Below, in pieces: positions 19,663 to 55,421 of a DNA stretch of 64,000 nucleotides (position 1 is its first letter; each line of letters begins with the position of its first letter). The position numbers and the translations under genes were made by a program. Below the pieces are notes generated by a model. That model did no database searches. It was not told the DNA's origin and saw only the letters and a program-made list of their open reading frames with translations. This DNA is from Candidatus Ferrigenium bremense (GTDB lineage Bacteria; Pseudomonadota; Gammaproteobacteria; Burkholderiales; Gallionellaceae). The stretch spans positions 62,001 to 126,000 of the forward strand of contig JAGRPI010000018.1 in the NCBI GenBank assembly GCA_019449635.1, in the 5' to 3' direction.

Positions 19663-22371
19663 GTGAACCCGCACCGCCATGCCATCGAAGAGTTCTATGC
19701 GCATCTGCACAGCGGCGCGCAGGGACTGACCCAGGCCGAGGCCACGCAGCGGCTGGCGAGGTACGGCGCCAACCGGATCGAGGAGATCGCCGCGCAGCCG
19801 TTCATCGGCAGACTGCTCAAGGAATTCACCCATTTCTTCGCACTGATCCTGTGGCTGGCCGCCGGGCTGGCCTTCGTCGCCGAATGGAAAGACCCCGGGC
19901 AGGGCATGGCGACGCTGGGCTATGCGGTGCTCGGCGTGATCCTGATCAACGGGCTGTTCTCGTTCTGGCAGGAATACCGCGCGGAAAAGGCGCTGGCCGC
20001 GCTGCGCAACCTGCTTCCGCAGCGCGCCACCGCGTTGCGCGCTGGCCGCGCGGTGCAACTGCCGGTCGCCGAACTGGTGCCGGGCGATGTGGTGCTGCTC
20101 GCGGCGGGCGATGACGTGCCCGCCGACTGCCGGCTGATCGAGGCGTTCGGCGTGCGCGTCAACACCGCCAACCTCACCGGCGAATCGAAACCGATGGCGC
20201 GCAACGCGGCCGCCGAACCGGAGGAGCAGGCCGCCTTGCGGCGCGACATCCTGCATGCCGGCACCTCGCTGATCTCGGGCGAAGCGAAAGCCATGGTGTA
20301 CGCCACCGGCATGCATACCGAATTCGGCAACATCGCGCGCCTGACGCAGGCCGCACGCGAGCCGCTGTCGCCGCTGCAAAAGGAGATCGCGCGCCTCTCA
20401 AGGCTGGTCGCGCTGTTCGCCACATTGCTCGGTGTCCTGTTCTTCCTGATCGGCCAGATGATCGGCCTGTCGTTCTGGGAAAACCTGGTGTTCGCCATCG
20501 GCATCATCGTCGCGAACGTACCCGAGGGATTGCTGCCCACCGTCACGCTGTCGCTGGCGATGGCGACGCAGCGCATGGCGAAGAAGAATGCGCTGGTGCG
20601 CCACCTGCCCGCCGTGGAGACGCTGGGCGCGGCCAGCGTGATCTGCAGCGACAAGACCGGCACATTGACGCAGAACCGCATGAGCATCCGGCAGGTGTTC
20701 TATTCAGGCGCGTTGCGGACCCCCGGCGAACTCACCGCAGCCGAACCGCTGTTCGCGATCATGCGCCATTGCCACGACCTGCGCCGTGTCGAACAGAACG
20801 GTCGGGAAGTATGGCAGGGCGACCCGATGGAAGTGGCGCTGCTGCAGGGCGCGCCGCCCGGCGATGTGTTCCCGCGCGTCGACGAAATCCCGTTCGACAC
20901 CGAACGCAGGCGCATGTCGGTGATCTGCGACACCCCGGACGGGCGCATGCTGTACTGCAAGGGCGCGCTGGAAAGCGTCCTGCCGCTGTGCAGCGCCATC
21001 CTGCTGCAAGGCAAGCCTCAGCCGCTGGATGAAGCCGGACGCGCGAACCTGCTGGCGATGCAGGAGCAGATGGCCGAACAGGGCCTGCGCGTGATCGCGC
21101 TGGCCTGGCGCAAATTGCCGCAGCATGCTGCACACCCTCTCCCTAACCCTCTCCCGCAAGCGGGCGAGGGAACGAACGAATCGCTGCGCGAAATTCAGTC
21201 TAACGAGGCCGAATTGATTTTCGCCGGGCTGATCGGGCTGGTCGACCCGCCGCGCGAGGGCGTCCCCGAGGCGATCAGCACCTGCCATGCCGCCGGCATC
21301 CGCGTGATCATGATCACCGGCGATCATCCCGAAACCGCCAGCGCGCTGGCGCGCGAGATCGGGCTGGCGCAGAACCCGGTCGCCGTGACCGGCGAGCGGC
21401 TGCGCCACATGTCTGACACCGATCTGCAACTGCTGCTCGACGAACCCGAGCTGCTGTTCGCGCGCACCGGTGCCGACCAGAAGATGCGCATCGTGCAGGC
21501 GCTGCAGCGCAAGGGCGAGATCGTCGCGGTGACCGGCGACGGGGTGAACGACGCGCCGGCGTTGAAATGCGCCGACGTGGGCATCGCGATGGGCATCTCC
21601 GGCACCGATGTCGCGAAGGAATCGGCCGACATCGTGCTGCTCGACGATCACTTCGCCACCATCGTCGCCGCCATCGAGGAAGGGCGCGCGGTGTACGACA
21701 ACCTGCGCAAATTCCTCACCTACATCCTCACCTCGAACGTCCCGGAGCTGGTGCCGTACCTCGCCTTCGTGCTGTTCAGGATCCCGCTGCCGCTGACCAT
21801 CATCCAGATCCTCGCGGTCGATCTCGGCACCGACATGCTGCCCGCGCTCGCGCTCGGCGCGGAGAAACCCGACCCCGACACGATGCGCCGCCCGCCGCGG
21901 CCGCGCAGCGAACGGCTGCTCGACTGGGGGCTGCTGCTGCGCGCCTACCTGTTCCTCGGGCCGCTGGAAGCGATCGCGGGCATGGCGGCGTTCTTCTTCG
22001 TGCTGCATGGCGGCGACTGGCAATACGGGGATATGCCGGGGCGCCACGACAGCCTCTACCTGCAGGCCACCGCGGCGTGCCTGTCGGCGATCATCGCGAT
22101 GCAGGTGGTCAACGTGTTCCTGTGCCGCCATCCGGCGATGTCCGTGTTCGGCCGCGGCCGCCGCCGCAACCCCCTGATCTGGTACGGGCTGGGCTTCGAG
22201 CTGCTGCTGTTGTTGTTGATCGACTACACGCCGTGGGGCAACGCGCTGTTCGGCACCGCGCCGCTGGGCATCGAGGTCTGGCTGTTCATCGTCCCGTTCG
22301 GGATCGGCATGCTGCTGCTGGAGGAGTTGCGCAAGTTGATGGTGCGCAGGCGAATGCGTAGGTTGGGTTAG
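19663..22371 (+). CDS. Cation-transporting P-type ATPase with in-frame repeat insertion
   Basis: P2-type ATPase of 902 residues (PacL/PMR1-like calcium or similar cation pump). Seen: actuator motif NLTGESKP near 170, PEGLLP in membrane helix 4, phosphorylation motif SDKTGTLT with Asp330, hinge VTGDGVNDAPALK near 625, and about ten membrane spans. Residues about 490-512 (HPLPNPLPQAGEG) are the translation of a dispersed repeat lying in frame in the nucleotide-binding domain. The last six residues and the stop codon come from another repeat that begins at 22358. GTG start. Ion specificity is not determined. Confidence 0.9.
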   Translation: MNPHRHAIEEFYAHLHSGAQGLTQAEATQRLARYGANRIEEIAAQPFIGRLLKEFTHFFALILWLAAGLAFVAEWKDPGQGMATLGYAVLGVILINGLFSFWQEYRAEKALAALRNLLPQRATALRAGRAVQLPVAELVPGDVVLLAAGDDVPADCRLIEAFGVRVNTANLTGESKPMARNAAAEPEEQAALRRDILHAGTSLISGEAKAMVYATGMHTEFGNIARLTQAAREPLSPLQKEIARLSRLVALFATLLGVLFFLIGQMIGLSFWENLVFAIGIIVANVPEGLLPTVTLSLAMATQRMAKKNALVRHLPAVETLGAASVICSDKTGTLTQNRMSIRQVFYSGALRTPGELTAAEPLFAIMRHCHDLRRVEQNGREVWQGDPMEVALLQGAPPGDVFPRVDEIPFDTERRRMSVICDTPDGRMLYCKGALESVLPLCSAILLQGKPQPLDEAGRANLLAMQEQMAEQGLRVIALAWRKLPQHAAHPLPNPLPQAGEGTNESLREIQSNEAELIFAGLIGLVDPPREGVPEAISTCHAAGIRVIMITGDHPETASALAREIGLAQNPVAVTGERLRHMSDTDLQLLLDEPELLFARTGADQKMRIVQALQRKGEIVAVTGDGVNDAPALKCADVGIAMGISGTDVAKESADIVLLDDHFATIVAAIEEGRAVYDNLRKFLTYILTSNVPELVPYLAFVLFRIPLPLTIIQILAVDLGTDMLPALALGAEKPDPDTMRRPPRPRSERLLDWGLLLRAYLFLGPLEAIAGMAAFFFVLHGGDWQYGDMPGRHDSLYLQATAACLSAIIAMQVVNVFLCRHPAMSVFGRGRRRNPLIWYGLGFELLLLLLIDYTPWGNALFGTAPLGIEVWLFIVPFGIGMLLLEELRKLMVRRRMRRLG
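21129..21205. repeat. Dispersed repeat inserted in frame in the P-type ATPase gene
   Basis: Holds accctctccctaaccctctc followed by the palindromic cgcaagcgggcgaggg and then cgaatcgctgcgcgaaattc. The first part recurs around 24919-24957 and in hemW, and the last part recurs at 31046-31072. The insertion keeps the ATPase reading frame. Confidence 0.85.
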
Positions 22372-52171: not shown

Positions 52172-53113
52172 CTACTTGATCCGATACAGCCGCTTCTCCA
52201 GCGTCTTGCCCTTCACTCCGTCGAAGCGGTCGTCCATCGCTCTGCCGAGCTTGCCGAGGCGGTCGTCGGGATGCGGGTGGGTCTTGAACAGCAGCGCGAC
52301 GTCGCCGTCGTCCCTGGAGAAATGGCCGATCTGCTGCAGCACCGCGGGCAGGCCGAAGGAGTCGTAGCCGGCGCGCGTGGCGAGCACCACGGCGATGCGG
52401 TCGGCCTCGAACTCGGCGTCCTTGTCGAGCGAGCGCGACACGATCTCCGCGCCGCTGCCGATCAGGCTCTGCACCTTGTCGCTGCCGCCGACGTTCTTCG
52501 CGACGAGCTGGCTGCCGAGGTCGATCAGCTTGCTCTGCTGCAATATCTTCAGGTGGTGCTGGCGAATCACGTGGCCGACCTCATGCGCCAGCACTCCGGC
52601 CAGCTCGGCCTCGCTCTGCAGCAGGCGGTACAGGCCCTTGGTGACGAAGATGTAGCCGCCGGGCGCGGCGAAGGCGTTCACGTCGTTCGAATCGATCACG
52701 CCGAAATGCCATTCCAGGTCGGGGCGCTCGCTCTGGTTCGCGACCCAGCGGCCGACGTTGTTGACGTATTTCTGCAGCTTCGCGTCCTTGACCAGTGGGG
52801 CTGCGCCGAGCAGGTTGCCGGCGATCTGCCGGCCGATGGCGACCTCCTCCTCGACCGGGGTGGCGGGCTTGCCGGTCACCTGCTGCTGCACACCCTGCTT
52901 TATCGTGTTCAGCAGTTGTTGTTCGAAGGGGTTCGCGGCCCAGGCGGTAGTGGAGCACAGCGCGAACAGTAAAACTCCTGCTGCCTTGGCCAGCTTCATC
53001 CATAAATCCGTTCGCATTGAGCCTGTCGGAATGCGTGCGGTTTCATGTGCTTCGACAGGCTCAGCACGAACGGTGGTTGGGTTTGACTGCATCGAAAGTG
53101 ATTGGATGTTCAT
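52172..53113 (-). CDS. Exported M48-family metalloprotease with REP-encoded N-terminal segment
   Basis: A zinc metalloprotease with HEVGH in LAGVLAHEVGHVIRQHH and a downstream EFEADRIAV, the M48 signature (BepA/LoiP-like). An AGGAG motif 8 bases before the ATG at 53113 makes this the best start (313 residues). Residues about 12-37 (TTVRAEPVEAHETARIPTG) are the translation of a REP hairpin, followed by a normal signal core MKLAKAAGVLLFALCSTTAWA. An ATG at 52999 would give that signal peptide directly but has no good ribosome site. Last gene of the MFS/CHASE2/SH3/M48 series. Confidence 0.85.
   Translation of the reverse strand: MNIQSLSMQSNPTTVRAEPVEAHETARIPTGSMRTDLWMKLAKAAGVLLFALCSTTAWAANPFEQQLLNTIKQGVQQQVTGKPATPVEEEVAIGRQIAGNLLGAAPLVKDAKLQKYVNNVGRWVANQSERPDLEWHFGVIDSNDVNAFAAPGGYIFVTKGLYRLLQSEAELAGVLAHEVGHVIRQHHLKILQQSKLIDLGSQLVAKNVGGSDKVQSLIGSGAEIVSRSLDKDAEFEADRIAVVLATRAGYDSFGLPAVLQQIGHFSRDDGDVALLFKTHPHPDDRLGKLGRAMDDRFDGVKGKTLEKRLYRIK
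53009..53073. repeat. REP-like hairpin inside the 5' coding region of the M48 gene
   Basis: Arms gttcgcattgagcctgtcgg and cttcgacaggctcagcacga. Read on the minus strand it stays in frame with the protease gene. Confidence 0.85.
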
Positions 53114-53124
53114 TGTGGCTCCTC

Positions 53125-53721
53125 TCATTTCGGCGCGGGCAGGTAATCGAAGGGGCGCGCGGCAAGCTTGCCCGCGGCGGCGAACTTCGTCGCAGCGGCC
53201 TTGCCGGTCGCGTAGGATTCGGCGCGCTTCAGTTCGGCCTCGTTGAACCTGGCCGCCTTTAGTTCCTCCTCGTTCAGGCCGCGGATGCCGGTGGTCGCGA
53301 CCACCTTGCCGGTGCCGGCTCGCCCCGAGGCCAGGGCGAGCACGCCGGAAGCGTCGCCGCCGCCCTTGCGCGCGTCGCCCTTGCGGATGCTCAGCATGCG
53401 CACCCAGCCCTTGCCCTTGGCGCTCTTCACCTGGTACCAGCCCCCGTCCTTCCTGAGGATGTCCACCTTGTCGCCCGCCGCCAGCGCCGCGACCGTCTTC
53501 GCGTCGCGGAACGGCTCGGTCTTGAGCTCGTCGCCCTTGATGGCCGTGCCGCTCTCGGCGGCGTGCAGCGCCCCGCTCAGCAGCAGTGCGCAAATCATCA
53601 ATAAGACCGATATGGCGCGAGCCAAATAGCCCGTTCGCCCTGAGGTATCGAAGGGTAAACAGTATGCCCATGCCGGGCTTCGATACCTCAGCCCGAACGG
53701 ATGTAGTTGGGTCTTGTTCAT
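53125..53721 (-). CDS. Exported SH3-domain protein with REP-encoded N-terminal segment
   Basis: A 198-residue protein. After the signal core ARAISVLLMICALLLSGALHA comes a bacterial SH3 domain (about 65-120, VAALAAGDKVDILRKDGGWYQVKSAKGKGWV) and an Ala-rich C-terminus. Between the start MNKTQ and the signal core lie about 28 residues (PFGLRYRSPAWAYCLPFDTS) encoded by a REP hairpin. GGAGAGGA precedes the ATG at 53721, which overlaps the CHASE2 stop (ATGA). Probably periplasmic, acting with the adjacent M48 protease. Confidence 0.82.
   Translation of the reverse strand: MNKTQLHPFGLRYRSPAWAYCLPFDTSGRTGYLARAISVLLMICALLLSGALHAAESGTAIKGDELKTEPFRDAKTVAALAAGDKVDILRKDGGWYQVKSAKGKGWVRMLSIRKGDARKGGGDASGVLALASGRAGTGKVVATTGIRGLNEEELKAARFNEAELKRAESYATGKAAATKFAAAGKLAARPFDYLPAPK
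53631..53700. repeat. REP-like hairpin inside the 5' coding region of the SH3 gene
   Basis: Arms cgttcgccctgaggtatcga and ggcttcgatacctcagcccg with a 20-base middle. In frame with the SH3 gene on the minus strand. Confidence 0.88.
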
Positions 53722-55421
53722 GTCGGTTTCCTCTCCTGCTTGTCCCATTCCAGCAAAGCCTCGGCGAACATCACACGCCAGCCGGCGCGAGCCGCGTCGC
53801 CCCCGGCAATATGTCCGTGATAGACGAAGTGGCTGGCCGCATTATCCGGCTGGGCGAGATAGCGGCGCAACACGGTCGGCAATGCGGCCAGCAGCGCGTC
53901 GATGTCGCGCCGGATCGCTTCCTGCGCCTCGCCGTTTCCGGCCTCGGCGACCCACGACACCGCCAGCGTGTACTCGAACAGGTTCCACAGGCCCCTCTGC
54001 TCGCCGCTCAGTGCCTCGACGCTCTTGACGACCCGGCCGGTCTTCAGCAGCGCCTGGCAGATCCGGGTGAGCGCGACGGGGCGGATCACGTTGCGCGCGG
54101 TGTCCAGCCGGACCAGCAGCAGGGTGGCCTGCAATTCCCCGCTGCGCGTCGCCGCCGCGCGCACCATGCTGCGTTCCAGCGCCCGCCAGGTCGCCGTCGA
54201 ATACAGGCGCGCCAGCGTGAAGAACGCCACGCCCACCGTGACCGGGCCGGTGAGGTTGATGTAGGTGGTGGTGAGGTTGATGCTCGCGTAGCTGATGCCA
54301 ATCAGGACGAACTGCGACAAGCCGAATGCGCGGTCGATCTTGTCGCGCCCCGTGTCGCGGTAGAAGCTCCATGCGGTCAGCCAGACGATGGCCAGCGTGA
54401 GCAGCAGGTAGGGGAAGCGTGCCTCGGGGTAACGCAGCGCGTCGCCGTGCTTGAAGTTGTCGATCGCCGTGGCGAGGATTTCCACGCCGGGGTGCATCTT
54501 GTCCAGCGGCGTCGCCTTGATGTCGAACAGGCTGGGCGCGGTCGAGCCGATGATGACGATCTTGCCCTTGAATTCGTCCTGCGGGCGCATCTTCTCCTTG
54601 CTCGTCATGTCGGCGAACACGTCGCTGAAGCTGACGTAGCGGTAGGTGAACGGCTTGCCGCGCCAGTTGAGCAGCACGCGCTGGGCGGTTGGTTCGTCCC
54701 AGCCCAGTTCGCGCGCGACGCGCGCCGGCAGCGAGGGCAGCTTCCAGCCGTAGTCTTCGCGGTACACCATGTATTCGCGCGCCACGTTGTCGGCATCCGG
54801 ATAGATGTTGTGCAGGCCGAGGCGGCCGCCGTCGAGTGCGGCCTGGAAGTGCGGCAGCACCACCGCTACGGTCGCGTCCGCCTGCGCGCCGGGCAGCGGC
54901 GTCACGCCGGGGATCATGGACGGCTTGACCTGGCTCAGCTTGTCGCTCGCGGGATCGAGCCGCAGCATCGGGAAGAAGGTGTTGTTCGTCGCGGCGATGG
55001 CGTCGTTGAAGTAGGCGTCGCTGTCCGGGTTGTACACGTCGGCGTCGCTGAACAGGATGTCGAACACCACCGCCCTGGGCTGCTGCTTCTCGACCTGCTC
55101 GACGAACTCGCCGAGCACCTGGCGCGGCCACGGCCAGCGTCCGTAGTCCCTGGCCATCGCCGCGAGGCTCGCCTCGTTGATGTCCACGATGACGATATCC
55201 GGGTCGGGCTTGGGCACGATAAGGCGATAGCGCACCATCGCGTCGAATGTCGCCTGGCGCATCTCGCCGGTGAAATGCAGCACCGTGGTGTCGAGCACCG
55301 CGAACACCGTGAACAGTCCGGCGAGGTAGAGGTAGAAGCTTTGCTTCCAGAGCTGCGCGATGCGCTCGGAGAGCTTGGTGCGCCAGCGCAGCAACTGGTT
55401 GACGATCTGTTTCCGGTTCAT
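53718..55421 (-). CDS. CHASE2-domain membrane protein
   Basis: A 567-residue protein: N-terminal membrane segment (about 28-48), a large periplasmic CHASE2 domain (about 70-320, with PDIVIVDINEASLAAM and KGKIVIIGSTAPSLFD), then three membrane segments (about 330-400) and a cytosolic part of about 165 residues. CHASE2 proteins normally end in a cyclase, kinase or GGDEF domain. None of these motifs is visible here, so the output is unknown. Its start overlaps the MFS stop and its stop overlaps the SH3 start, both by 4 bases. Confidence 0.88.
   Translation of the reverse strand: MNRKQIVNQLLRWRTKLSERIAQLWKQSFYLYLAGLFTVFAVLDTTVLHFTGEMRQATFDAMVRYRLIVPKPDPDIVIVDINEASLAAMARDYGRWPWPRQVLGEFVEQVEKQQPRAVVFDILFSDADVYNPDSDAYFNDAIAATNNTFFPMLRLDPASDKLSQVKPSMIPGVTPLPGAQADATVAVVLPHFQAALDGGRLGLHNIYPDADNVAREYMVYREDYGWKLPSLPARVARELGWDEPTAQRVLLNWRGKPFTYRYVSFSDVFADMTSKEKMRPQDEFKGKIVIIGSTAPSLFDIKATPLDKMHPGVEILATAIDNFKHGDALRYPEARFPYLLLTLAIVWLTAWSFYRDTGRDKIDRAFGLSQFVLIGISYASINLTTTYINLTGPVTVGVAFFTLARLYSTATWRALERSMVRAAATRSGELQATLLLVRLDTARNVIRPVALTRICQALLKTGRVVKSVEALSGEQRGLWNLFEYTLAVSWVAEAGNGEAQEAIRRDIDALLAALPTVLRRYLAQPDNAASHFVYHGHIAGGDAARAGWRVMFAEALLEWDKQERKPT

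Follow-up and report, generated by a model that had tools for sequence, protein, structure and literature searches.

Palindromic repeats that are read as part of proteins have been described before. The Rickettsia RPEs, as presented in the parts of PMC10969869 used here, are multicopy palindromes read in frame in many unrelated genes. Intragenic REPs of the GTAG/CGTC families are reported from many species, often in repair genes and in some cases at N-termini, and the recB genes of two Xanthomonas species carry different REPs at about the same site; the relevant sections of this 2013 survey also caution that many N-terminal cases may be untranslated (PMC3733652). Finally, a long N-terminal extension ahead of the Sec core characterizes the extended signal peptides of autotransporters, as outlined in the available portion of PMC2805444.

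The locus compared with these systems here lies in the window, a stretch of 64,000 nucleotides from a Gallionella/Ferrigenium-type genome of 2.41 Mb in 42 contigs, whose named relatives by M48 are MAGs of Gallionella and Candidatus Ferrigenium. The minus-strand gene order is a CHASE2 protein (identified by Pfam), an exported SH3_3 protein and an M48 protease. The preliminary description had reported a hairpin just after the start codon of each of the two adjacent exported genes, and both hairpins were indeed found there, with their arms located (Table 1). Likewise, the frames are open from the SD-linked ATGs at 53721 (SH3) and 53113 (M48), via the hairpin, to the signal core, and the observation of multicopy palindromic repeats in frame between an SD-linked ATG and a signal core is confirmed. 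The size given for the hairpin-encoded segments, 26-28 residues, has to be corrected: the hairpins measure 66 nt, or 22 codons, in M48 and 70 nt, or about 23 codons, in SH3. The net gain over orthologues exceeds the hairpins themselves, amounting to 33 codons (99 nt) in SH3 and 39 codons in M48.

Table 1. Positions of the features of the SH3_3-M48 gene run in the window
Feature	Position	Strand	Remarks
SD-like AGGAGAGG of SH3	53730..53737	-	same context in L007 and L009; similar in L004/L035
ATGA, CHASE2 stop overlapping SH3 start	53718..53721	-	
SH3_3 exported protein gene, 198 aa, with putatively translated palindrome	53125..53721	-	open frame; Pfam SH3_3; conserved start
SH3 palindrome	53631..53700	-	begins 21 nt after A of ATG; arms 53631-53653 and 53678-53700, 91% complementary; 52 matches in own genome
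TTG, possible downstream SH3 start, poorly supported	53623..53625	-	
SD-like GAGAGGAG of M48	53119..53126	-	overlaps SH3 stop codon 53125-53127
M48 protease gene, 313 aa, with putatively translated palindrome	52172..53113	-	open frame; Pfam Peptidase_M48
M48 palindrome	53008..53073	-	begins 40 nt after A of ATG; arms 53008-53028 and 53053-53073, 86% complementary; family of 85 arm matches
ATG just before M48 signal core, possible second start	52997..52999	-	SD-like GGA weak, partly in stem

The alignment of orthologues, which had been proposed as a check, identifies both segments as insertions, since orthologues share the SD and the ATG and then pass directly into the signal core, as in MKTMKLSLMICALLLSGALHA for SH3 (L035) and MNNKTLWILALALCSTPAWA for M48 (L033). 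The distance from the CHASE2 stop to the SH3 stop is 593 nt in the window as against 494 nt in L035, L036, L039, L041 and L009. For M48, 81 rows were examined (rows under 58% identity are not shown; L071, with a broken frame, and L052, on a doubtful contig, were set aside), and the M48 clade was defined as the 13 members with an M48 identity of 81% or more. The M48 ATG stands 10-11 nt past the SH3 stop, in frame with the M48 body, in all 13, and the mature start follows after 61 codons in the window as against 21-22 in the eight insert-free members; the possibility that every orthologue carries the segment is thereby refuted. The nearest row of the DNA tree, L036 (92% identity), has neither insert, so that both look recent in the window lineage. 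No comparable insert occurs in the mature SH3 or M48 part in any of the 13 members, where mature lengths vary by a few residues.

The two hairpins belong to different sub-types, with the arm TGTCGAAG in M48 (a CTGAG-type REP) and GTATCGAAG in SH3. The M48-type arm pattern yields 43 + 42 matches in the 2.4 Mb genome versus 3 + 0 for a reversed control, and this copy number, together with the orthologues that have no such segment, rules out chance palindromes. In the first (M48-type) family, for which 84 of the 85 arm sites were covered (C14, a single weak arm, was left out), 33 two-armed hairpins were found: 21 between genes and 11 within called genes, plus that of the M48 n-region. In the second (SH3-type) family, where only the longer of the 52 matches were considered, 17 of 21 two-armed hairpins are intergenic; the other four comprise two inside called genes, one that extends over the end of a small called gene, and that of the SH3 n-region. 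Both are thus REPs in the broad sense, i.e., short palindromes in many copies, mainly intergenic (21/33 and 17/21).

The in-gene copies of the first family (L135, L137, L140, L152, L158, L161, L162, L165, L169, L171 and L173) reveal that tolerance is not special to signal peptides, because the same repeat stands in frame in these 11 other called genes. Hosts of in-gene REPs passing the NCBIfam cut-offs are PriA, SMC, MutS, RecG and RlmM; NuoE/NuoF-like, ArnT-like and 3-hydroxyacyl-CoA dehydrogenase-like proteins score below the cut-offs but show clear matches to their families, and two more hosts, Lnt and a U32 peptidase, come from Pfam. In 11/11 the VRxE phase is the one used for the leading arm, although the alternative phase FALSLSK is also open in those 11, an outcome expected at 2^-11 if the two were equally likely (simple arithmetic); the hydrophobic phase is seen in SH3, L258 and Lnt. 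Selection may pick the phase that suits the protein. Two further reading frames are recorded here as observations in their own right: L158:330-2222 is a single open frame in which a REP separates a NuoE-like from a NuoF-like part, and the frame of a cation-transporting ATPase in the window (21133-21169, plus strand) reads HPLPNPLPQAGEG, which looks like another in-frame repeat.

Insertion in frame into unrelated ORFs is what the repeats have in common with the RPEs, as multicopy palindromes are read in unrelated genes in both systems; by description, the RPEs differ in sequence and host. Here, furthermore, the signal-peptide n-region of a single gene is occupied by unrelated repeats in different species, a situation for which no RPE counterpart was found in the parts of PMC10969869 used. 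With the intragenic REPs, going by the sections of PMC3733652 cited above, the present repeats share short in-gene palindromes, repair genes among the hosts and some N-terminal locations. However, the arms lack a GTAG or CGTC tag; across 91 of them, one GTAG, one CGTC, two CTAC and no GACG lay within 8 nt, and the repeats are therefore not members of the GTAG/CGTC REP superfamilies. A RAYT origin was also considered and rejected; none of the five Y1_Tnp matches is flanked by the repeat, with one single arm near L238 and none in L239, L240 or L241. The extended signal peptides of autotransporters resemble the present case, as far as PMC2805444 was drawn upon, in the long extension ahead of the Sec core, whereas the present extension consists of a repeat differing from species to species and sits in proteins that are neither autotransporters nor two-partner secretion proteins, Pfam giving SH3_3 and Peptidase_M48.

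The preliminary description had suggested that this position tolerates insertions, and the relatives bear this out, with four repeat types in the M48 n-region in 5/13 clade members and three types in 3/9 members of a second exported family (see below). Long M48 n-regions occur in the window, L034, L037, L009 and L046; the inserts measure 39-50 codons, and the path from the ATG to the mature start is 67-72 codons in the four relatives. Among orthologues of at least 58% identity, no other intact gene has its hydrophobic core later than residue 30. The insert of L034 is a CTTCGTGG-type palindrome with 40 matches in its own genome, insert included. L037 and L009 carry one type, with arms TTCGATACGC/GCTACGCGAG and three matches each in G009 and G040, the insert itself counted, and L046 carries ATTCCGGCC-type hairpins with four genome matches, again including the insert. 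A 9-nt indel separates the L037 and L009 inserts, and the DNA tree joins L037 and the insert-free L040 in a group without L009 (99/98); as this misfits one simple gain, we count four repeat types and not a number of events. A counterexample to frame-preserving insertion is L049: its SH3 start is hit by a REP that disrupts the original reading frame, and translation may resume at an ATGA stop-start overlap within that REP. In L020 and L025, the stretch immediately upstream of the SH3 start reads as tandem repeats of the KWEVGSG/KWQVASG type.

Recurrence of this kind raises the question as to whether the position is chosen on insertion. The repeats are presumably moved by a mobilising enzyme, and a preference of this enzyme for sites near translation starts would fit the finding that, in five genomes, M48 carries four repeat types in its first ~15 codons. 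We consider such a preference highly improbable, as it would have to be common to four different repeat types, and the insertion points differ (MNSQTLWVL, for instance, is kept ahead of the L046 insert). In addition, the 33 first-family hairpins of the window genome are intergenic or in other called genes in all but the M48 case, and for 10 of the 11 in-gene copies the distance to the open-frame start shown exceeds 60 codons.

Whether the repeats are translated is a separate matter. Frame 0 is open through the M48 insert in 5/5 cases and frames 1 and 2 each contain one or more stops; the chance that the upstream frame is open through all five is about 0.004 (arithmetic on the frame alone). In L037 and L009 the first ATG is the sole in-frame ATG, GTG or TTG in the 75 and 73 codons listed, so the repeat is translated there, provided that the genes work. 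L034 has one other in-frame start only, a TTG beyond the hydrophobic core, and L046 has several in-frame TTG/GTG codons. For the window strain, translation of the repeat is indicated by analogy with these relatives and by the conserved SD and ATG. The contrary reading is that the repeats are ordinary REPs in an untranslated leader, with starts at ATG 52999 (M48) and TTG 53625 (SH3). Indeed, ATG 52999 opens a textbook signal peptide, MKLAKAAGVLLFALCSTTAWA, a simple gene caller chose downstream starts in both window genes and so placed both hairpins outside genes, and the 2013 survey, in the sections used here, considered that in three species the majority of 5'-end REPs are probably not translated (PMC3733652). 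We nevertheless regard this reading as quite unlikely: it passes over a strong, conserved SD and ATG upstream and leaves the frame open across all five M48 inserts, as well as the two relatives with no other in-frame start, to be explained, and the SDs of the downstream starts are weak, the GG of that of ATG 52999 lying in the stem (by inspection). Initiation only downstream of the hairpin, put forward earlier as what would overturn the proposal, is thus unlikely from the conserved start and from these two relatives. ATG 52999 may, however, serve the window strain as a second M48 start giving an ordinary signal peptide; the in-frame ATGs of the window M48 other than the first are at codons 7, 32 and 38.

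A further suggestion of the preliminary description was that the hairpin modulates translation or export, for which no direct support emerged. A related account would have the hairpins retained as RNA structures at the gene junctions, where they would control how translation is coupled or how stable the mRNA is; the n-region would simply be a place with room for such an element. In its favor, another palindrome type lies between CHASE2 and SH3 in L033, L037, L040, L042 and L046, and between the L037 and L009 inserts 81/82 stem positions are identical, as against 14/23 in the loop and 145/187 at fourfold sites of both genes, a weak hint that the stems are under selection. The all-position comparison mixes in constrained sites, however; at fourfold sites within the stems the figure is only 17/18 (P 0.06). 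The stem identity might also be due to copy conversion or repeated insertion. Moreover, the predicted unpaired fraction at the M48 start is 0.40-0.68 with inserts versus 0.42-0.59 without, and most relatives have no insert, which leaves the account unlikely on balance. As to the CHASE2-SH3 junction itself, the filler in those five relatives is a GATGGGT-type palindrome; by inspection, CHASE2 of L033, L037 and L040 stops at a TAG directly before GATGGGT, and the stem bases of the L037 and L040 palindromes differ in a paired way.

Beyond this operon, 76 genomes of the genus were scanned with two patterns, both placing a REP arm behind an SD-linked ATG. Each pattern listed 35 sites versus 0 and 1 for the controls, and 60 loci out of these 70 sites were examined. 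Most ORFs from these ATGs are short, eight reaching 120 aa. By inspection, L263 and L266 (no palindrome), L273 (ATG in a terminator-like hairpin, a later ATG being likely) and L278 (reading doubtful) were dropped. Kept as ORFs reading the repeat after an SD-linked ATG were four in the 60 loci: L246, an ABC ATPase without a signal peptide, and three in which a signal or lipoprotein-like core follows the repeat, namely L258 (exported, no Pfam family), L260 (an outer membrane efflux protein) and L299 (BamB-like, with half an arm only).

The L258 family is the second exported family referred to above. Its orthologues were compared in nine genomes, with starts not chosen for repeats except in L302, which is L258 itself. 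Six members have short signal peptides; L303, 90% identical to L258, carries a different repeat, PSPVYGRGVGGEG...PLPNPLPQVGEG, and L310 a third, RHSRESGNP...PAFAGMT, after an ATG in an upstream context matching that of the short members. We take the L303 and L310 segments to belong to repeat families. A generic search for hairpins in 130 signal-like ORFs from the loci used detected n-region hairpins only in the window SH3 and the L037 M48, and none after the signal core; the scan says little on generality, since it was strict enough to miss the other inserts and its loci had been chosen for this operon. When 3450 ORFs were searched for peptide motifs of the repeats, 23 had such a motif shortly after an SD-linked start, of which only those then turning hydrophobic were listed.

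Taken together, the explanation that we favor with good confidence is that two multicopy palindromes of the REP kind were inserted in frame just past the start codons of two exported proteins encoded in a densely packed run of genes. Ribosomes would begin at the ancestral SD-linked ATG and read through the hairpin, giving precursors with n-regions of about 40-45 residues; the precursors would still be exported, and signal peptidase would cut off the extra residues together with the signal peptide. Random insertion followed by selection accounts for the pattern best, as the n-region appears to tolerate length and would be removed, and the inserts would then be nearly neutral. The slot would be reused because the genes abut or overlap, so that a palindrome of 60-150 nt costs least between start and core, frame permitting. 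Most likely, the n-region that is cleaved off forms a tolerant slot where neighbouring genes are tightly packed. A bolder extension, which is speculative and rather unlikely, would make the signal-peptide n-regions of exported proteins in Gallionellaceae a general safe harbour, colonised time and again by unrelated palindromes, and have the hairpin at overlapping junctions set the ratio of the two products as a translated intergenic element.

In-frame palindromes within genes are already known; what looks new is that unrelated repeats have come to occupy the signal-peptide n-region again and again, a pattern for which our literature search found no description. The comparison supports translation of repeats at gene starts and so provides comparative evidence that such repeats can be truly translated, which the 2013 survey, in the sections used here, doubted for many N-terminal cases (PMC3733652). 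One peptide that translation of the repeat would yield is VRAEPVEAHETAR. Start-codon callers can misplace such starts, as a simple caller did for both window genes. Finally, the inserts of 39-50 codons within a single protease family amount to a natural experiment that probes how far the n-region of a signal peptide can be lengthened.
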